Below, piece after piece: positions 31,034 to 40,586 of a DNA stretch of 64,000 nt (positions are counted from its first letter, which is position 1; each line of letters begins with the position of its first letter). The position numbers and the translations under genes are program-made. Origin of the DNA: Halobacteriovorax sp. GB3 (GTDB lineage Bacteria; Bdellovibrionota; Bacteriovoracia; Bacteriovoracales; Bacteriovoracaceae); assembly GCF_028649655.1 (NCBI RefSeq), contig NZ_JAQSLN010000003.1, forward strand, positions 1,116,001 to 1,180,000. The letters are read 5' to 3'. The notes beneath the pieces were generated by a model. It saw only the letters and a program-made list of their open reading frames with translations. It was not told the origin of the DNA and searched no databases.

Positions 31034-32254
31034 CTATGACTGAGTTAAGTAATCAACAACTAATTGCATGGCCTCTCTAAAGTCTTCTTTTTGTGAGACA
31101 AGGGAAATTCTTGCCGAGTTAGGTAATCCAAAAGCAATTCCTGGAACCATTGCGACCCCTAATTTATCAAGAATCTCTTCACAAATTTGAATCGAATAAT
31201 CTTCGCTTTCATCAGTAGAGTTTTTAAATCTTTCCATAACAGGACATTGAGAAAAATCGATCATATAGTAAAAAGCAGAGTTTGGTTGATACCAAATCTT
31301 ACCTAAACTCTGATCGTGCAGACAATCTCTAAGTAAATTAGCATTCTCTCTTAGGTGCTGTTTAATAGGTTCTAAAAACCTTTCAATATTTGAAAAATCA
31401 AAACTAATTAAGGCCTTTTGAACGAGACTGTTTGCGCCGGAAGCAGTTTGACCTTGAAGTCGAGACATCGCTGAAATTAATTCTTTTGGTCCATAACAAT
31501 AGCCAATACGAAGACCTGTACAAGCAAGGTTTTTTGAAATTCCATCAACAACAATTGTTCTCTCTAGGAGCTCTGGATGTTGTTGATAAAAATAAGTTGG
31601 ACCCGGATCAAAGAAACTCAATTCATAGTAAATCTCATCACTAATGACATAGAGATCAGGATGTCTTTTTAATAATTCTGCAAATTGATTCATCCACTCA
31701 GATGAGTAACTTGTCCCCGTTGGATTATTAGGACTATTGAGAATAATCGCTTTTGTTTTATCAGTAATTGATTTTTCAATGGCCTCAATATTTGGAACGA
31801 AAGCATCATATATAGATGTCTCAACAAAGACAGTCTGACCACCATAGAGATTAATAATCTCTGGATAAGAAACCCAAAATGGAGTGATCACAACAACTTC
31901 ATCTTCAGGATCGATGATAGAGGCCAAGATATTGCTAATAACGTGTTTTCCACCATTACCTACAATACAATCGTAATTGCAATCTTTTAAACTAACTCCC
32001 CTTGATGTTTCAAAGTAGTTTAGAAGTTTTGTACGAAGTTCAGGATAGCCAGGCACAGGGCTGTACTGATAACTTTTTAAGAAATCAGATTCACTTTTTA
32101 TTCCATCAATGAAGTCACTCATTGGACGAAATGGAAGTTGTCCGGCAGTTAGATTAAAAATTTTTCGCCCTTCATTTGTTAGCTGAACGGCCTTGGCATT
32201 GAGCTTCAGAGTCATACTTTCTGAAATATCAGAAACTCTTTTACTTAATTTCAT
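31034..32254 (-). CDS. Class I aminotransferase (aspartate aminotransferase type)
   Basis: PLP-dependent aminotransferase of fold type I. Landmarks: NSPNNPTG (substrate/PLP region near 175), SDEIYYEL, the Schiff-base lysine in VDGISKNLACTGLRIGY near residue 241, and the C-terminal substrate arginine in SARISLVS. Length (406) is typical. The family could transaminate aspartate, or aromatic or other amino acids; the sequence does not settle this. The ATG has AGGAG upstream, inside the end of coaD. The two genes overlap by 14 bases, so translation is coupled. Confidence 0.9.
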   Translation of the reverse strand: MKLSKRVSDISESMTLKLNAKAVQLTNEGRKIFNLTAGQLPFRPMSDFIDGIKSESDFLKSYQYSPVPGYPELRTKLLNYFETSRGVSLKDCNYDCIVGNGGKHVISNILASIIDPEDEVVVITPFWVSYPEIINLYGGQTVFVETSIYDAFVPNIEAIEKSITDKTKAIILNSPNNPTGTSYSSEWMNQFAELLKRHPDLYVISDEIYYELSFFDPGPTYFYQQHPELLERTIVVDGISKNLACTGLRIGYCYGPKELISAMSRLQGQTASGANSLVQKALISFDFSNIERFLEPIKQHLRENANLLRDCLHDQSLGKIWYQPNSAFYYMIDFSQCPVMERFKNSTDESEDYSIQICEEILDKLGVAMVPGIAFGLPNSARISLVSQKEDFREAMQLVVDYLTQS

Positions 32255-32738
32255 CCGTATCTCCTAATTTATTTTGTAATCTCTTTAGAATTGAATCTGG
32301 AACAAAATCACTTACATCTGTACCGTGTTTGAAAATTTCTTTAACAAGTGAAGAAGAGACGTAATAATTATCTCCTTCTGTTACAAGAAAGACCGTTTCG
32401 ATATCAGGAAATAATTTATTATTCATTGAGGCCATTTGAAATTCACTTTCAAAATCCCCTGTCGGTCTAAGACCTCTTACAATAGCGCCAATATTATTAT
32501 TCTTAGCGTAGTCAACGATAAGACCACCCCAAGAATCAACTTTGACCCTCTTATCATTTTTAAAATGATCTCCAATCATCTCGACTCTTTCTTCTGTTGT
32601 AAAAAGAGGTCTCTTCGAAGGAGAAATGGCCACGAGAATTGTCACTTCATCAAAGAGATTGAGTGCTCTTTTTAAAATACCTTCGTGCCCCTTAGTAAAT
32701 GGATCAAACGTCCCCGCGTACATGGCCTTCTTAATCAT
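32241..32738 (-). CDS. coaD: Phosphopantetheine adenylyltransferase
   Basis: Penultimate step of coenzyme A synthesis: adenylates 4'-phosphopantetheine to dephospho-CoA. The nucleotidyltransferase signature is near the start (YAGTFDPFTKGHEGI), and YVSSSLVKEIF near residue 126 is the usual C-terminal motif. The start at 32738 is preferred: the ATG has AAGGAA upstream, while the TTG six codons earlier has nothing. The resulting 165 residues fit the family. It sits between rsmD upstream and the aminotransferase downstream; rsmD-coaD is a common pairing in bacteria. Confidence 0.95.
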   Translation of the reverse strand: MIKKAMYAGTFDPFTKGHEGILKRALNLFDEVTILVAISPSKRPLFTTEERVEMIGDHFKNDKRVKVDSWGGLIVDYAKNNNIGAIVRGLRPTGDFESEFQMASMNNKLFPDIETVFLVTEGDNYYVSSSLVKEIFKHGTDVSDFVPDSILKRLQNKLGDTDEIK

Positions 32739-32791
32739 GTAGGATTTCCTTTTCAATTTTTACTAATTTTAACAAAAGATAGAATTTTTAG

Positions 32792-33397
32792 CTACGCTCT
32801 TGAAGAACAATCGTAGAGAGCAATGTAACTTGTCCCTTGACGGTAAAATTTCTTAGCTTCCATAATTGTGAGATCGAGCAGGTCTTTTTGTTTAACACCC
32901 TTCTGTTCATCACTTTCAAGCCAAAGCTCTCCAATAAACCAGTGCTTTTCTAAGACTTCTTCTATAATTAATTTATAGAGACCCTTAAGCTCATAAGGAG
33001 GGTCAAAGAAAATAACAGTGTTGAGCTTTCTTTCCACTTCCCAGTGGGAATAAAGGAGCTCAAATTGACTGATCCACTTTTCCGCCTTTTGGGTTTGGAT
33101 GAGGACCTTTTCTAAATCGAGACCACTTCTTTCGAGAGAAGAGAAGTTTCTTTTGAGGTAATTGCTGACTTTTTTATTTCCCTCGATACACATAACGGAA
33201 TTGGCACCACGTGATAAGGCCTCGGCTCCCATCGCACCTGTTCCAGCACAAAGGTCGATAAAGTGCACACCAGAGAGGTCCTGATGAGCATCAAATATTT
33301 TTCGTCTTAACATGACTGATGTGGGACGGACTTCATCCCCTTTAGGAACTTCAAGGGCAAGACCTTTCGCCTTGCCCCCTAAGATTTTAATGGCCAC
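32792..33397 (-). CDS. rsmD: 16S rRNA (guanine-966-N2)-methyltransferase RsmD
   Basis: Modifies the 30S decoding region using SAM. Motif I is DLCAGTGAMGAEA at 48-60 and the catalytic motif IV is DPPY at 132-135. The N-terminal segment ILGGKAKGLAL with VRPTSVMLRRKIFDAH is characteristic. Length (201) is normal. It heads a cluster with coaD 54 bases downstream. Confidence is high. Confidence 0.95.
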   Translation of the reverse strand: MAIKILGGKAKGLALEVPKGDEVRPTSVMLRRKIFDAHQDLSGVHFIDLCAGTGAMGAEALSRGANSVMCIEGNKKVSNYLKRNFSSLERSGLDLEKVLIQTQKAEKWISQFELLYSHWEVERKLNTVIFFDPPYELKGLYKLIIEEVLEKHWFIGELWLESDEQKGVKQKDLLDLTIMEAKKFYRQGTSYIALYDCSSRA

Positions 33398-33423: not shown

Positions 33424-34173
33424 TTAAGCTGCTTTCTTTGTAGAAGCTGCACCATCAGAGGTCAAAGGAATTGTGAATTTTACACCACTTTCCATCTCAA
33501 CTGTACAACCCTCACTACCATCAAGAGTAAGGTTTAGTCCGTTCATAGAAATTGTAAGCTTTCCATCAACAACGCTAAAAGTTGCCTGCTCTTCTCCTAC
33601 TGGAAAAGTCATATTCATATTCATTTTTCCAGAAGCGCTAAAGCTCATATCTGTCGCACCATCAGAACTCACAGAGCTCATCGTAGGCGCTTCATGACTT
33701 GTAGCAGAAAGAGGTACGACATTATCGATCGTCTCTTCTACAAAGTCTTCTTCACTAAATGTTGTTTCCTCTTCCATTACTGGAGAATCCTCAGTCGTTG
33801 CCACCTCTTCCATTACTGGCTCAGATTCAACTTCTTCACTCATACTCACTTGTTCAGCAGCAGGTTCACTTACTTCAACATCGTCAACAAAGCTATCAAC
33901 AGCATCATCAATTTGAGATTCTGATTCACTAGTAACAATCTCTGTTTCAGCTCCGGCATTTTCAACTTCTTGATCGATCACATTTTGCAGAGAGTTACTC
34001 TCAGGTGCATCCAATGAAAGCTCTTCCTTCATTGTTGGACCTTCACTAGCACTGTCATCAACAAATTCTTTTTCTAGTGACTCAATCTCATTCATAATGT
34101 CTTCAAGCTCTGAGTCATTAAACCCTTGCTCTACTGTTTCTGCCATTGCTTTTTCTAGTTCATCATTATCCAT
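33424..34173 (-). CDS. Acidic low-complexity protein with a C-terminal beta domain
   Basis: About 249 residues. The start at 34173 (MDNDELEKAM) is chosen because AGGAG lies 7 bases upstream. The first 160 residues are extremely Glu/Asp/Ser-rich and probably disordered, with repeated VMEE and SEE stretches. The last 80 residues (from MSFSASGKMNMNMTF) look like a small beta domain with TFSVVDGKLTISMNGLNLTLDG, followed by a basic KKAA tail. There is no signal peptide, so it is cytoplasmic. No family was recognised. A charged disordered arm fused to a beta domain could act as a partner-binding or regulatory protein. Confidence 0.6.
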   Translation of the reverse strand: MDNDELEKAMAETVEQGFNDSELEDIMNEIESLEKEFVDDSASEGPTMKEELSLDAPESNSLQNVIDQEVENAGAETEIVTSESESQIDDAVDSFVDDVEVSEPAAEQVSMSEEVESEPVMEEVATTEDSPVMEEETTFSEEDFVEETIDNVVPLSATSHEAPTMSSVSSDGATDMSFSASGKMNMNMTFPVGEEQATFSVVDGKLTISMNGLNLTLDGSEGCTVEMESGVKFTIPLTSDGAASTKKAA

Positions 34174-34404
34174 GACCATGCTCCTAACACCATACGTCAA
34201 GGCATTTATGCCTAAACAAATACCTAATATCCTTTTCGTCTAGTGATGTAAGAATCTTTAATAAAATATATCCCTAAAGATTTTAGTAGGTTAACAGGAA
34301 CACTTTGAGAAAAACCGAGATTTTCACATGACTTTTCGTATGAAATTCGATATAAATGCGTGCTCGTTTCAATGGAATTTTAACACTAAAAACAGCATAG
34401 CAAT

Positions 34405-37245
34405 GTGCTTAGGGTTTACCTCTTGAATAATAAATCGTTTAAGGCCAATAACTGGCTTAACATAGACTCTGACTCTAAAAAGAGTACAAGTGAGGAACTT
34501 CCGCCTCTGCCACCAATGGTAGAAGCGAAAGTCGAAGATACTCCTCTATCTTGTGAATCAGAATCAATGTTTAGTCTTGGTCAATTTCTTATTCCAGAGT
34601 GGAAGGGAGAATCTCTCTTTTCCAAAGAGGCAATGCGAGTTAAGAACCTCATGGAAAAGCTCTTTGACGATGCTCTTGAGCAAGTTGAAGACTTCAGCTC
34701 TAGAAATAGATCAACGAAAATTGCTATTTTCAATGAATTCCTTTCTTATGCTCATGAAATGGACCTAAATGACCTGGCCATTGATAACTTCAACGACTTT
34801 TGGTCTGAATATGCGAATCCATTTTCAAGCGATAAAGTAAAGATTGATAGCTTCAAAAAAGTTTTCGCTTTTAGGGCCATCACAATTTACTTATTTAAAA
34901 TCAGATTCTTTACGCTTATTGGTAACAACCAATGCCACTCAATCACTTCGAGCGACTACCTAACTCCGGACTATTGTCTGAGAAAGATTTTTAAGAAAGG
35001 AAGTTCGAGTGAAATTGATAGTGAAGCACTCCAAACAAACCAATACAGTTGGTATAGACCTGCGAGTCGCCTTAAAGAAACAATTCACGAAACAGTGATT
35101 CAAATCGAGAAGATCAGCCTCGCTGAAATTCTTAAATTATGCAGACCAGAGACTTTTAACCTTGGACACTACAACCCAAGGGATAACTTCTCCCACTCTC
35201 TTTCTACGAGATCATTTGGTCTCTTTCTCAATCAATTAATGATTGAATTCCCAGCATGGGTAGAAAATAGAAAAATAGGTGCCCTTAACAGCAATTCGCA
35301 ACAAGTAAAAGCGCTCAATACATTCTTTAGTGGCGATTATCTTCAGTCTCTATCGGGAGCTCACTGGCTCGCCCAAGAACACAACAGTCAATTCAAATGG
35401 CGAGAGCTTCTTTGCCCTGACTTTATTGGAGACAATTATCAAGAAGGTAGCTTCTTAAAAATTTGTCACGAGCTTCACTTTTTAAGCTTTCTTGTCGATC
35501 TTGCTGATAAACAAGGACACAATCCTGTTTCAATGATCTGCAACGTCTACAAGCAGAAGATTTCATCTTCTAGAAATAATGAGATTGGTCAGATTGGTTT
35601 ATTTGATTCAACAAGCAATGGTGACATCGCCTATGATCGCCTTCTCATTAACCTTGTTCACTTGCCAAAGAAAAACCCTCACCACTTTCTTTTAACGAAA
35701 GTGAATCAACTTGGTAAAAAACTGGCTTCTAATGGGTATCTCTATCTCTTTTCTAATCAAAAGCTCTTTGTTCCATCACAGAGCGAAAAGCTAGAGCAGC
35801 TTCTTCTCGAATATAAAGTCGAAGCAAATTTCAACCTTGAAGACCTTAAAGGAAGAGGTGAAATTCCAAACTTCCTCTACGTTTTAACAAAGAGAAGGCC
35901 ACACCAAAGGGCATTTTATAACTCGAGTGTGAAGTCTCAAAAAGAATCACTTCTAAGCTTTAGAATGGCCGGGGACTTATCTCTATTTGGAAAGTTTCAA
36001 TCATTTGTTGAAGAGTTCTTTCAATTCTTTGAATCGAAAAACCCACAAACGACTCCAGTCTATCAAAGTGAACCACTCGAGGATCTCACTCTTGAATTTC
36101 ATCAAGATGCCATTCTCGAAGGAAAACTCCTTAGCTCAACGACTTCCGCTCAAGGTCAAGTAACGCACCCAAATTACTTCAAAAACTTAATGAAGTCTTG
36201 TGTGCCATTTGATCAATTCTTCAATATTGAGAATTTACAAAGTGAGACGAGTCTAAAAAATAAGAATATCACTTCAGAGCTTCTAGGGATTACATTCAGA
36301 CAAGAAGAGCGCTTTCCTTTTCTTCTTATTGTCGATTACACAAATGAAGCTCAGATTAAAATTGAACTTACAACTTCTGATCTTTATAAGGCCAAGCTCG
36401 AGCAATATGGGCAGGCTTATTTCCAATATTTTGGTCTAATGCCAAAAAGAGCTGATATCAATATCAACCTCTTTAGAGAGTTCTTCAACACTCCTATTGG
36501 AAACCAGGTTGTACAACTCTCGCTCAATGGCGGGCTAACAAAAATTAAGTCAAAGCTAAGAGCTCTTTTGATCCCTAAATTCTTTATGGATAATAGCTTC
36601 TTACCAAAGCACCTTGCTCCGACACTTAATTTCTTACAGATTGATCAGCAAGAACTTCTTAACTCTCACCCAAGAGATATTGAGTCTAGCTTTTCAGATA
36701 CAAAGCAATATCTTCATTCAATTGGACAAAAGTACCCATGGCATAGCCTAAGTCTTCTTTCTAATTTTAAATACCACCTAGAGGCTTGCCTTCAAAGCTT
36801 ACAAGAGCACGATGTAAACTTCTACAATCCTCTTATTAAAGAACCTCTCTGTCGCCTAGAGACAGTTCCGGTTTACCCAAATAACAAAGAGGTTTACCTA
36901 TCAATTGAGGCAAAAGATCCAAGTGATATTCACGCGCCTCTCTATGATGTCTCCCTCTCTAAAGAGGGCGATAATGACTGTCTTGAGATCTATACATCAA
37001 TGGATAATTGCATCCTTAAGATTTTCTCTGAACCTGTTATGCTAGGTTTCATTCACTTTGTCCTCTCTGGAGCAAAGGGAACGAAAGTCTCAAGTATCAT
37101 TCAAGGTCTTAGAGTTCCTTCTATCGAAGAACTTAGTTCGATAGTTGATAACTACGATCTTATGACTAAAACAATCTCAACTGTTCATACGACAACAGAT
37201 CAATTAATCGGTCAGATTCTTTCTCAACAAATTTCGACTCATTAA
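34405..37245 (+). CDS. Large protein resembling an inactive N6-adenine DNA methylase (HsdM/S-like)
   Basis: A 946-residue cytoplasmic protein. The start may be the GTG at 34405 or a TTG at 34423 with AGGG upstream. By eye it follows type I methylase order. A helical N-terminal part is followed by a motif-I-like DNYQEGSFL near residue 343 (functional form DPACGSGGFL). Near 410, YDRLLINLVHL sits where active enzymes have FDVIxxNPPY, so NPP[FY] is lost. Then FLLTKVNQLGKKLASNGYLYLFSN and EIPNFLYVLTKR match later strands of the fold. Near 690, FFNTPIGNQVVQLSLNGG resembles an S-type specificity domain. No restriction gene is present. It may be a DNA-binding pseudo-methylase. A ChaN-like gene follows at 37284. 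Confidence 0.55.
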   Translation: MLRVYLLNNKSFKANNWLNIDSDSKKSTSEELPPLPPMVEAKVEDTPLSCESESMFSLGQFLIPEWKGESLFSKEAMRVKNLMEKLFDDALEQVEDFSSRNRSTKIAIFNEFLSYAHEMDLNDLAIDNFNDFWSEYANPFSSDKVKIDSFKKVFAFRAITIYLFKIRFFTLIGNNQCHSITSSDYLTPDYCLRKIFKKGSSSEIDSEALQTNQYSWYRPASRLKETIHETVIQIEKISLAEILKLCRPETFNLGHYNPRDNFSHSLSTRSFGLFLNQLMIEFPAWVENRKIGALNSNSQQVKALNTFFSGDYLQSLSGAHWLAQEHNSQFKWRELLCPDFIGDNYQEGSFLKICHELHFLSFLVDLADKQGHNPVSMICNVYKQKISSSRNNEIGQIGLFDSTSNGDIAYDRLLINLVHLPKKNPHHFLLTKVNQLGKKLASNGYLYLFSNQKLFVPSQSEKLEQLLLEYKVEANFNLEDLKGRGEIPNFLYVLTKRRPHQRAFYNSSVKSQKESLLSFRMAGDLSLFGKFQSFVEEFFQFFESKNPQTTPVYQSEPLEDLTLEFHQDAILEGKLLSSTTSAQGQVTHPNYFKNLMKSCVPFDQFFNIENLQSETSLKNKNITSELLGITFRQEERFPFLLIVDYTNEAQIKIELTTSDLYKAKLEQYGQAYFQYFGLMPKRADININLFREFFNTPIGNQVVQLSLNGGLTKIKSKLRALLIPKFFMDNSFLPKHLAPTLNFLQIDQQELLNSHPRDIESSFSDTKQYLHSIGQKYPWHSLSLLSNFKYHLEACLQSLQEHDVNFYNPLIKEPLCRLETVPVYPNNKEVYLSIEAKDPSDIHAPLYDVSLSKEGDNDCLEIYTSMDNCILKIFSEPVMLGFIHFVLSGAKGTKVSSIIQGLRVPSIEELSSIVDNYDLMTKTISTVHTTTDQLIGQILSQQISTH

Positions 37246-37283
37246 TCTCTTTTAAATTATCAAAAACAGATTACAATAGATAT

Positions 37284-38924
37284 ATGGGTGCCCAAAAGTC
37301 CAAGAACCTAGAGCTTGGAAAACTACAGAAAACGATCTATTCAAACCTTAAATCTAAGGCAGAATCCTTAGAGGGTACCGTTTCAAAAGAGCTTATTTCT
37401 TATCGCAAAGACCAAGAGCTCTATGAGAAAAAACCTTTTTCTCCCTGCAAGTTTGAAACTCTTCTTAAATCGATCAATCATTCGCATATCATTTATCTTG
37501 GGGATTTTCATACTTTTGACCAGTCCAGTAGAAACTTGCAAAGACTCATAAAAGTTTTAGCAAAGAATAATAGTGGCTACGTTCTTGGTGTTGAATTTAT
37601 CCATCAAAAAAATCAACAGATGATTGATAGCTTCTTGGCCGGTCAATTAACAGAATTAGAATTTCTAGAGTCGATTCAATACCGAGAATCATGGAGATTT
37701 CCTTGGACTTATTATCGACAATTCTTTGAACTTGCAAAGAAGTATAAGATTAAAATCTATGGACTTAATACTGATGGAAATCTTAAAAAGAGAGATCGCT
37801 TTGCAGCAAAGATTCTAGCAAAGATTCATAAAAAAGCCCCTGATAAAAAGATCCTTGTGCTCTTTGGAGAATATCATATTCTACCTGATAAACTTCCAAA
37901 CGATACACTTGTCGAACTTAATGGAAATGTTCACCAAACGATCATTCACCAAAATTTAGACTCTGTTTATTGGAATATTGCTAATACGAAAGGTGGTACA
38001 GATCGCCTCGTCAAATTCTCCAATAATGAGTTTGCCCTTCAAACCTCTCCTCCTTGGATTAAATACGAGAGTATGATTTATTGGTTTGAACATCTTGGTG
38101 AAGATCCAGAATTTGATATCCACGAATTTATCATGGAAACGGGTGTCTTCACTTTTAATAGCAATGCTATGGATAACTTTGTCTTTATAGCAGATCAGTT
38201 GAACTCGACATTGAAATTAGAGCTATCCTCTTCAGATATTGAGGACTTCAATCTCTATGACCATGAGAGACTAGAGTTTGTTCAAAAGAAAGTTCAGGGA
38301 CTTGATTCAAAGACTCTCCAGTCATTCTACCTCAAGTTGTTAACGAGAAACCGCTCGTTTCGAATTCCTGGAACTAAGAATTACTACTGCCCAAGCTATT
38401 CAATCAACCGACTGGCCTATCTCGCCGGTGTTCACCTCTATCTTCAGCTTCTTCACAAGCAACAGAAAAGTGAAGACGATTGCCTGATCGGAACAAGACA
38501 ATATACAAAATTTATCTTCTTCTGCTACCAATCTTTCATGGGTTATTTTTCTTCCAAGATTATTAATCCCTATAGAAAATGTGATCGCTACCAAGACTTT
38601 TTAAAGTGTCTTCGAAATAAGAAGACAAGTGCTTACGACAAGAAAATACTTCGACTCTGTCTTCGTGTTATCGACTCTAAAACAAAGACAACAGATATCT
38701 TTAATGGTGTAAACATCCTTGATACTTTCCTCGTTGCGAGAAAGATTGGCTACCTTATGGCCGATGATTTCTTCGAAGAGATCTTTCATAGAGACCACCA
38801 GAAAACGCAGATCGTTCTCGATACCCTCTTCTCATTTAAATTTTGTCCTGAAGAATTTGAGAAGCTCATTCACGTTATCTTACCTAGAACAAGCTATAGA
38901 AAAGCAAAAAAAACCCTCTTCTAA
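37284..38924 (+). CDS. ChaN/EreA-like protein of unknown function
   Basis: A 546-residue protein without a signal peptide. Residues 55-230 resemble the ChaN-like (haem-binding uptake / EreA) fold: IIYLGDFHTFDQS at about 70-82, VLGVEFIHQKNQQMI, then LFGEYHILPDKLP near 195, the paired GE/D-x-H positions of that fold. The remaining 300 residues are helical with scattered cysteines and are unrecognised. It lies 38 bases behind the methylase-like gene in the same direction, so they are probably one operon. Its TAA stop codon is the loop of a terminator hairpin. Confidence 0.65.
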   Translation: MGAQKSKNLELGKLQKTIYSNLKSKAESLEGTVSKELISYRKDQELYEKKPFSPCKFETLLKSINHSHIIYLGDFHTFDQSSRNLQRLIKVLAKNNSGYVLGVEFIHQKNQQMIDSFLAGQLTELEFLESIQYRESWRFPWTYYRQFFELAKKYKIKIYGLNTDGNLKKRDRFAAKILAKIHKKAPDKKILVLFGEYHILPDKLPNDTLVELNGNVHQTIIHQNLDSVYWNIANTKGGTDRLVKFSNNEFALQTSPPWIKYESMIYWFEHLGEDPEFDIHEFIMETGVFTFNSNAMDNFVFIADQLNSTLKLELSSSDIEDFNLYDHERLEFVQKKVQGLDSKTLQSFYLKLLTRNRSFRIPGTKNYYCPSYSINRLAYLAGVHLYLQLLHKQQKSEDDCLIGTRQYTKFIFFCYQSFMGYFSSKIINPYRKCDRYQDFLKCLRNKKTSAYDKKILRLCLRVIDSKTKTTDIFNGVNILDTFLVARKIGYLMADDFFEEIFHRDHQKTQIVLDTLFSFKFCPEEFEKLIHVILPRTSYRKAKKTLF

Positions 38925-38943: not shown

Positions 38944-40425
38944 TTAAATTGATTGTTTCAACTGCTCCATGAGCTCTCTTTTTGTCCCCTTCGTCACATT
39001 AACGAGGCGGACTTCTTTTTGGTCTTGCTCGACAGCATATGGTTTGTCGCTAGCAGCAGCGTGAAGCGTGATCTTCATTCGAAGTCCTACGACTTCAGAG
39101 CTCTCCATAATATTGTCGTACTGAACCTTTCCACCAACTTCAGAGATAAACTCTTCAGTTAATTGAAGTGCCAGCGGCATCTCTGATGAATTATCCTTGA
39201 GACCTTTGTGAGAATTTAGAAATTGCTCATCAAATCCACGTCCATAACATTGAATATCTGTTACGATAAGGCTTCCAAGTTTTCTTCCCTCAACGATTAC
39301 TCTCTTATCAGCACTTCCCTCTTGTGATGCTTTAATTGCATAGAGAAGTGATTGGTAGATCACCTGCTCAAGAGTTTCTTCGTCAGCTTTTACAAAGAGA
39401 TCTCCCTCACCTTGAAGTTCAATACGAACACCTTCAGCGAGAAGTTTATTAGAGAGATGGTCGACGACTTTTGAAGAAACTGTATCAAGAGAACATCTTA
39501 ACTCTTCTGAAGAGTCATCAACAGTATATTCTTGGTCAATCTCGTATTCAGCATTCGCTTGTGCTTGGATACCATCCGTCTCTTGCCAGATTCTTTCAAT
39601 TTGAGCTTCAACTTCTTCTTTTGAACCTTTAAGAAGCTCAACTTTTCCAACTTTGTCAGAAAGATTAAGTGACTTAACTTTTCTCTGAATATCTGAATTA
39701 TATTTAGAAAAAAGCTTAGAACAATAGATGAGCTCGTTTTGATTGAGGGCCGTCTTAATAATGTCTTCAACTTTAGAATCAGTTGTAAAATCTTCTGAAG
39801 AGAGTTCTCCAAGAGCTTCATCTTCAATTTCTCTATTTTTAGCTTTAAGATTTCTTCTCTCAAGAACTTCCCATAAAAGAAGAAGTGGAAGAAGAAAGGC
39901 CAGTGAAAAGAACGTTACTTTTAAGTTCGAAAGAACTTCACTTAGTTTAACTTTGAAAGAGTCGAGACTCTCAAGGACAGAAGACTTCCCTTGTTCGATT
40001 CTCTGAAAGCGAGGACCAAATTCATTAATGCTCACTCCAGCAACAAGTGCCTTAGACTCTGCTTTGAGAACTTTTGTATGAAACCAATGAACATCATTGG
40101 CAAGGCCATTAAGTTTTTTACCAACTTTATCAATATGCTCGGCCAAATTGTCTTCATAGGCAGCAATAACATCGGCCATGCACTCTTCAGTAACATTTGT
40201 AAAAGCAGCTTCTAAGTATGGGGAGTACTTATCACCTAGCATTCTTGCCGTATAAGATTGATTCACACGATTAAAACATGTTTGAACCCCGCCCTCTAAG
40301 ACGGAAGCTTTTTTAAGCTTATCTGATGTCTGATAGACACTGTACGTTGAGCCCAAAAGTCCTACCGTTAGGCCAATTATTGCAAACGGCTTTAAAACTT
40401 TCGTTTTCCCCAAAACGTCTTTCAT
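38944..40425 (-). CDS. Membrane protein with a degenerate histidine-kinase ATPase domain
   Basis: About 493 residues; the start at 40425 (MKDVLGK) has AAGGAA upstream. It has TM segments near 12-30 and 175-195, a helical periplasmic region with a few cysteines, and an acidic helical linker. The C-terminal domain is like a histidine-kinase ATPase: LEQVIYQSLLYAIKAS where the N box should have NxxxNA(I/V)K, then CYGRGFDEQFL where DxGxGI is expected, and MPLALQLTEEFISEVGGKVQ where a G2-type GLGL is expected. No convincing H-box was found. It looks like a sensor that no longer phosphorylates, or a very divergent one. No partner regulator is adjacent. Confidence 0.6.
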   Translation of the reverse strand: MKDVLGKTKVLKPFAIIGLTVGLLGSTYSVYQTSDKLKKASVLEGGVQTCFNRVNQSYTARMLGDKYSPYLEAAFTNVTEECMADVIAAYEDNLAEHIDKVGKKLNGLANDVHWFHTKVLKAESKALVAGVSINEFGPRFQRIEQGKSSVLESLDSFKVKLSEVLSNLKVTFFSLAFLLPLLLLWEVLERRNLKAKNREIEDEALGELSSEDFTTDSKVEDIIKTALNQNELIYCSKLFSKYNSDIQRKVKSLNLSDKVGKVELLKGSKEEVEAQIERIWQETDGIQAQANAEYEIDQEYTVDDSSEELRCSLDTVSSKVVDHLSNKLLAEGVRIELQGEGDLFVKADEETLEQVIYQSLLYAIKASQEGSADKRVIVEGRKLGSLIVTDIQCYGRGFDEQFLNSHKGLKDNSSEMPLALQLTEEFISEVGGKVQYDNIMESSEVVGLRMKITLHAAASDKPYAVEQDQKEVRLVNVTKGTKRELMEQLKQSI

Positions 40426-40586
40426 ATGATTTCCTTCGGCTAAATCCATATAACCTATTGATAATTCATTAGGCTCGCGTCAAAACGCAAAACACCTCTT
40501 CCAATTCTCACAATTCCCCCTTTAGCAGTCAAGAAAGGGATAAAAATGCCTTTCCAATAAGTACCTGAAAAGTCACAATAAGACTG

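Follow-up and report, generated by a model that had tools for sequence, protein, structure and literature searches.

Restriction-system methylases are usually fast-moving genes that a cell can do without, and catalytically dead methylases are known in principle, METTL14 and TRM6 among them. The described systems that lie closest to the protein reported here are (i) the single-chain gamma-class methylases of the Eco57I, MmeI and TaqI type (PF07669, PF02384, PF20473 and PF12950); (ii) type I HsdM with HsdS; (iii) the large methylase-plus-recognition-domain chains of BREX (PglX/BrxX) and MAD2; and (iv) CamA of Clostridioides difficile, a species-wide core orphan gamma-class protein without a nuclease (PMC8187626). 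The gene that follows it belongs with a further group, the ChaN/Tiki/EreA superfamily (PF04187).

We analysed a window of 64,000 nucleotides from Halobacteriovorax sp. GB3. A sequence-only reading had described a two-gene unit within it, a 946-residue protein with the order of a type I modification enzyme and a ChaN-like protein. The two frames (946 and 546 aa), the 38-base gap between them and the named strings all lie where that reading had put them; in the first protein DNYQEGSFL is at residue 343, INLVH is inside YDRLLINLVH (410-419) and FFNTPIGNQ is at 693. Both ORFs (34405-37245 and 37284-38924) are long, intact and conserved across dozens of genomes, more than chance would give. We refer to the first as the pseudo-methylase; its closest named relative found, at 60% identity, is in Bacteriovorax sp. 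BSW11_IV. The locus comprises:

32241..32756, minus strand: coaD-like gene, locus marker (named from its sequence; synteny)
32792..33397, minus strand: rsmD, 16S rRNA methyltransferase, locus marker (family libraries, synteny)
33424..34200, minus strand: divergent gene for a strongly acidic protein, fixed partner (synteny, charge count)
34328..34356 (within 34325-34358), plus strand: conserved promoter-like element, ATGACT, 17 bases, TATAAA (intergenic comparison)
34405..37245, plus strand: pseudo-methylase gene, 946 codons from GTG 34405, probable true start TTG 34423
37284..38924, plus strand: ChaN/Tiki-like protein, 546 codons, with an unmatched helical C-terminal half, optional partner (Pfam, model, synteny)

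Homologues of the pseudo-methylase start at the residue that matches codon 7 here (TTG 34423, with AGGG upstream), and the protein is therefore probably 940 aa long.

Neither single-sequence nor family-profile searches of Pfam, NCBIfam, PDB and PADLOC gave a match for the pseudo-methylase; a ZorC match (0.0027) in one of 29 family members was treated as chance. Automatic annotation misses the protein because the window family matches nothing in Pfam or NCBIfam. Its identity comes from fold and from profile comparison. An AlphaFold model built from 55 homologues (pLDDT 82, pTM 0.58) was searched against the PDB, and the first 30 fold matches were all gamma-class N6-adenine DNA methylases, including M.BseCI (2.2e-5), HsdM, CamA, BrxX, MmeI and M.TaqI. 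The PDB matches also include PacII M1M2S, an enzyme with two M subunits. A search of viral proteins added M-S fusions, namely adenine methylases of giant viruses and a "specificity domain" protein, with alignments of about 1000 columns (E 2.7e-9 to 3.1e-8). The TM-scores of the fold search were low, about 0.2-0.37, and together with the pTM of 0.58 they leave the relative placement of the domains unsure. The matches give a domain order of helical, methylase and recognition-domain-like, as the sequence-only reading had it, and the structure prediction that it proposed as a check returned a Rossmann methylase domain, with HsdM among the top matches. The parts of the protein are:

34576..35262, plus strand: N-terminal helical domain, residues 58-286 (AlphaFold model)
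35308..35892, plus strand: degenerate methylase (Rossmann) domain, residues 302-496 (model, fold search, profile comparison)
35320..35343, plus strand: motif X position, TFFSGDYL, residues 306-313, replacing the HYTPP/FTP type (order and by eye)
35413..35457, plus strand: motif I position, CPDFIGDNYQEGSFL, residues 337-351, without DPxxGxG (alignment)
35632..35685, plus strand: motif IV position, YDRLLINLVHLPKKNPHH, residues 410-427, without (N/D)PP(Y/F/W), N416 invariant (alignment)
35941..36594, plus strand: recognition-domain-like (HsdS/TaqI_C-like) region, residues 513-730 (model, profiles, viral fold matches)

A chain of profiles supports the methylase identity independently of the fold. 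Contigs were scanned for relatives with a closer subset of the family, because the full alignment was too diverse. The window-family profile picks up two proteins, each about 900 aa long, in another Bdellovibrionota family, f12; they lie at the same spot, divergent from rsmD-coaD-aminotransferase. One of these recruits homologues in f4, f8, f10, f12, f15, f17, f19, f24 and f25 and matches back to the window family, and the next profile round adds f5, f13 and f20. Profile-profile comparison gave E-values of 1.5e-9 between A3 (window family) and A5 (732 columns), 2.4e-38 between A4 and A5 (777 columns) and 4.7e-5 between A3 and A4. Five A5 members and an f5 protein match Eco57I (down to 4.2e-16), N6_Mtase and MmeI_Mtase, with TaqI_C weaker. 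Model, fold searches and this chain to PF07669/PF02384 all point to a Rossmann methylase fold with the motif order X, I, IV and then a recognition domain. The predicted identity of the protein, a degenerate methylase fused to a specificity domain, is well supported, and the degenerate type I-like reading with its S-like order thus holds.

Against this background the pseudo-methylase can be set beside its described relatives. It shares fold, domain order, motif order X-I-IV and a single chain with the Eco57I, MmeI and TaqI enzymes, and its orthologues in f4 and f5 score above the Pfam cut-offs for them; in contrast to those enzymes, its family has no motif IV, most members (the window protein included) have no SAM motif, no nuclease was recognised with it, and it is a chromosomal core gene. 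CamA, matched by fold, is likewise core and without a nuclease, but it is active with NPPY, a motif that the pseudo-methylase does not have. The order of M then S-like regions is that of type I HsdM plus HsdS, whereas here the two are fused and the catalytic motifs are lost. With BREX and MAD2 it shares the large methylase-plus-recognition-domain chain, yet it is not mobile, its motif IV is not intact, and no BREX or MADS neighbours were recognised: BREX genes (PglZ, BrxC and others) are not adjacent, the neighbourhood across families being the rsmD-coaD-aminotransferase locus.

The loss of the catalytic motif noted from the sequence is confirmed and extends to the SAM-binding loop. At motif IV, (N/D)PP(Y/F/W/H) is absent from all 98 sequences in three alignments, and the window protein has INLVHLPKKNPHH. 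The window family carries YDRxxLN-L-x-x-x-P-K-x-N, which keeps only the Asn of the canonical motif (N416, 55/55); P421 and N424 are also invariant, and K422 nearly so, in these 55 sequences. The SAM-binding motif I, DPxxGxGxFL, is missing from all 55 and was seen only in the f4 and f5 relatives, whose proteins combine an intact SAM motif (e.g. FDPTMGSGNFL or FDPACGTGNFL) with C/A-PPE at motif IV. Relatives in f10 have a motif I variant, NPIAGAG, and CDxAFVxEE or a similar string is common at motif IV in f8 and f12. In the window model, residues 391-410, a stretch that is also of lower confidence, show no counterparts of strands beta2 and beta3 of the SAM-binding half. Three features predict that the pseudo-methylase cannot methylate in the canonical way: motif IV departs from (N/D)PP(Y/F/W), another sequence stands in place of the glycine-rich SAM loop, and the model has no beta2/beta3. 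In TspGWI, a related fused enzyme, changing NPPY to APPY abolishes methylation (PMC3968444). That different motif pieces are gone in different lineages suggests that catalysis was relaxed while the scaffold was retained.

We considered whether the protein is instead an enzyme with altered chemistry or cofactor, acting on DNA, RNA or protein through the invariant N416, P421 and N424 and the HH that follows. The invariance of N416 leaves room for such a change, as does constraint that is strongest in the methylase domain. However, the SAM motif is gone and other families have wholly different residues at the site (CPPE, EE, TSK), which indicates that no single active site is common to the superfamily, and we regard this explanation as unlikely.

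A second alternative is a METTL14-like or M1/M2-like role, in which the protein, itself non-catalytic, would form a dimer with an active methylase from another locus and give it specificity. HsdM enzymes do work as M2S, and the PacII match has an M1M2S composition. The sequence-only reading had noted no intact HsdM nearby; the window holds neither an HsdM nor an Eco57I methylase, and a genome-wide search limited to the PF02384 and PF07669 classes gave only weak matches, in frames of 200-411 aa outside the window. We therefore rejected an active HsdM partner for this genome; a dead subunit is disfavoured because the genome has no convincing HsdM. True PF02384/PF07669 methylases are, moreover, patchy among relatives that all keep the pseudo-methylase, and we judge a subunit role improbable. 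Nor does the locus look like a type I restriction-modification system, given that the genome has no convincing HsdM or Eco57I enzyme and that the neighbours are housekeeping genes.

Of 37 family genomes, 35 carry one copy of the pseudo-methylase, and the two without the gene are 66% and 88% complete. Overall dN/dS is 0.03-0.07 for close pairs, several of them near dS saturation, and is lowest in the methylase domain (0.016-0.06, with the same proviso). The flank order g379-g323-aminotransferase-coaD-rsmD-acidic gene is retained in most window-family loci. The rsmD-coaD locus is common to about 13 families, with rsmD or coaD adjacent in most loci of the other families; no pseudo-methylase was found at the coaD locus in the examined genomes of f2, f3, f6, f7, f9, f11 and f28, for which some contigs are short. 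Family f6 is probably Bdellovibrionaceae, one of its genomes being probably that of Bdellovibrio exovorus JSS. The gene is neither part of a defence island nor a decaying relic. Farther downstream, the product of 38944-40449 (minus strand), a gene syntenic across most of the window family, has a weak HATPase_c match (1.7e-4, below the cut-off) and is possibly a degenerate histidine-kinase-like membrane protein.

The fixed position beside an rRNA methylase gene (rsmD) in most families, with a DTD-like gene sometimes following, might point to an RNA- or ribosome-associated protein. Since the pseudo-methylase is transcribed away from rsmD and its specificity-domain region resembles DNA-reading domains, we find this very unlikely.

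The ChaN-like identity of the second gene, with an unrecognised C-terminal half, proved correct. The Pfam ChaN domain PF04187 covers residues 61-167 (3.1e-23), and the model (pLDDT 86, pTM 0.85) best matches ChaN of Campylobacter jejuni (2g5g, 3.9e-5). The gene shares the fold of the superfamily and its GxxH...E...GxxH signature, invariant in the family as GDFH, E104 and GExH. It differs from ChaN in having no evident lipoprotein signal (by eye) and an additional helical C-terminal half of about 250 residues (about 270-546), which gave no fold match. This half has a conserved INPxRKCDxY and, at the C-terminus, KRxF. The supposed fixed pairing did not survive comparison. The gene adjoins the pseudo-methylase in only 27 of 63 testable window-family loci; its presence changes twice on the protein tree, consistent with two losses (FastTree; some branches are long), and it occurs without the pseudo-methylase in other families. 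In f8, f17 and f20 a gene of about 235 aa separates the pseudo-methylase from the ChaN-like gene downstream, which suggests that the association is old but optional. We see the ChaN-like protein as an optional part of the operon that has hydrolase or haem-type active-site motifs of its own.

Two further genes recur downstream. The family of about 235 aa lies directly after the pseudo-methylase in several other families (L191:9322-10044, L234:8247-8948, L226:8513-9220 and others); it has no Pfam match and was not found in the window family. A 145-aa protein, D-aminoacyl-tRNA deacylase-like by eye (L122:10844-11281, L116:12508-12945 and others), comes directly after either the pseudo-methylase or the ChaN-like gene in several clades, and its gene often overlaps the stop codon of the one before it.

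These distributions bear on the suggestion, made from the sequence, that the dead methylase may be an anti-phage sensor; in such a role, or as a defence effector, it would detect phage DNA and signal via the ChaN-like hydrolase. The fold is common to BREX PglX/BrxX, the f4 relatives match PglX and MAD2 models (in NCBIfam and PADLOC), and the ChaN-like neighbour retains its signature residues. The window protein has no credible PADLOC match, however, and the putative signalling partner is missing in 36 of 63 loci. Where a defence gene would be patchy, mobile and set in defence islands, this one is near-universal and single copy, keeps rsmD-coaD synteny across the phylum and is under strong purifying selection, and for these reasons we hold a sensor to be quite unlikely.

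The fixed partner of the pseudo-methylase is the divergent acidic gene and not the ChaN-like gene. The acidic gene lies beside the pseudo-methylase in 62 of 63 window-family loci. Most of the other families have it at the same place, with rsmD on one side and the pseudo-methylase on the other, as seen in loci of f8, f12, f15, f17, f19, f20 and f25; examined loci without the pseudo-methylase did not show it. Its product has a net charge of -55 over 258 residues, which puts it above 99% of background ORFs in acidity per residue, and has no Pfam or NCBIfam match. In other families the median charge is milder (-0.09 per residue), which makes the idea of a DNA mimic only a lead. A C-terminal beta motif, ...GTEFKIPV, was seen in the acidic proteins of other families. 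A promoter-like element of the ATGACA-17-TATAAT type lies upstream of the pseudo-methylase in most loci. The 8-mer CATGACAA is enriched there: 37 of the 63 intergenic regions have it, and 1.1 Mb of loci contain it only 69 times. It was considered as an operator and set aside, as it lies at the -35 position of this element.

We conclude that the protein is very probably a pseudoenzyme derived from a single-chain gamma-class N6-adenine DNA methylase of the Eco57I/HsdM-S/PglX-like type, and that in part of the Bdellovibrionota its gene has very probably been domesticated and passed on vertically as a core gene. Because it is kept at one fixed place across much of the phylum while its active site is lost, it has probably taken on a role without catalysis, as a DNA-binding or scaffold protein. 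Its helical and recognition domains, acting as a clamp, may still bind DNA without modifying it, so that the protein would act as a site-specific nucleoid or regulatory protein, and the divergent acidic protein may bind or control it. Fold and gene order leave the DNA-binding role with control by the acidic partner about evenly poised. The net charge of the pseudo-methylase is near zero; it is therefore not obviously DNA-binding, which counts against this explanation. As a whole, we lean towards a core protein that was domesticated to bind DNA without catalysis, with possible control by its acidic partner. A more specific version, which we consider doubtful, would be a two-protein regulatory unit in which the dead methylase reads a specific DNA site and the back-to-back acidic, DNA-mimic-like partner competes with DNA, on the model of phage Ocr, which competes with DNA for living enzymes of the same fold.

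In open-access texts we found no description of inactive methylases in Bdellovibrio or of domesticated bacterial methylases, nor of a core, phylum-wide dead bacterial methylase; the superfamily is known, and what appears to be new is the architecture of conservation. Here one methylase has turned slow-evolving, near-universal and fixed beside rsmD-coaD in about 13 families. The graded series, from a SAM motif that is intact to one that is entirely gone, offers material on the passage from DNA-modifying enzyme to structural or regulatory protein. In a phylum with predatory bacteria, the locus suggests a core component so far undescribed, together with a conserved acidic partner of no known family. 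If the DNA-mimic unit is true, it would be a core, phylum-specific chromosome regulator that evolved from a restriction-modification enzyme.
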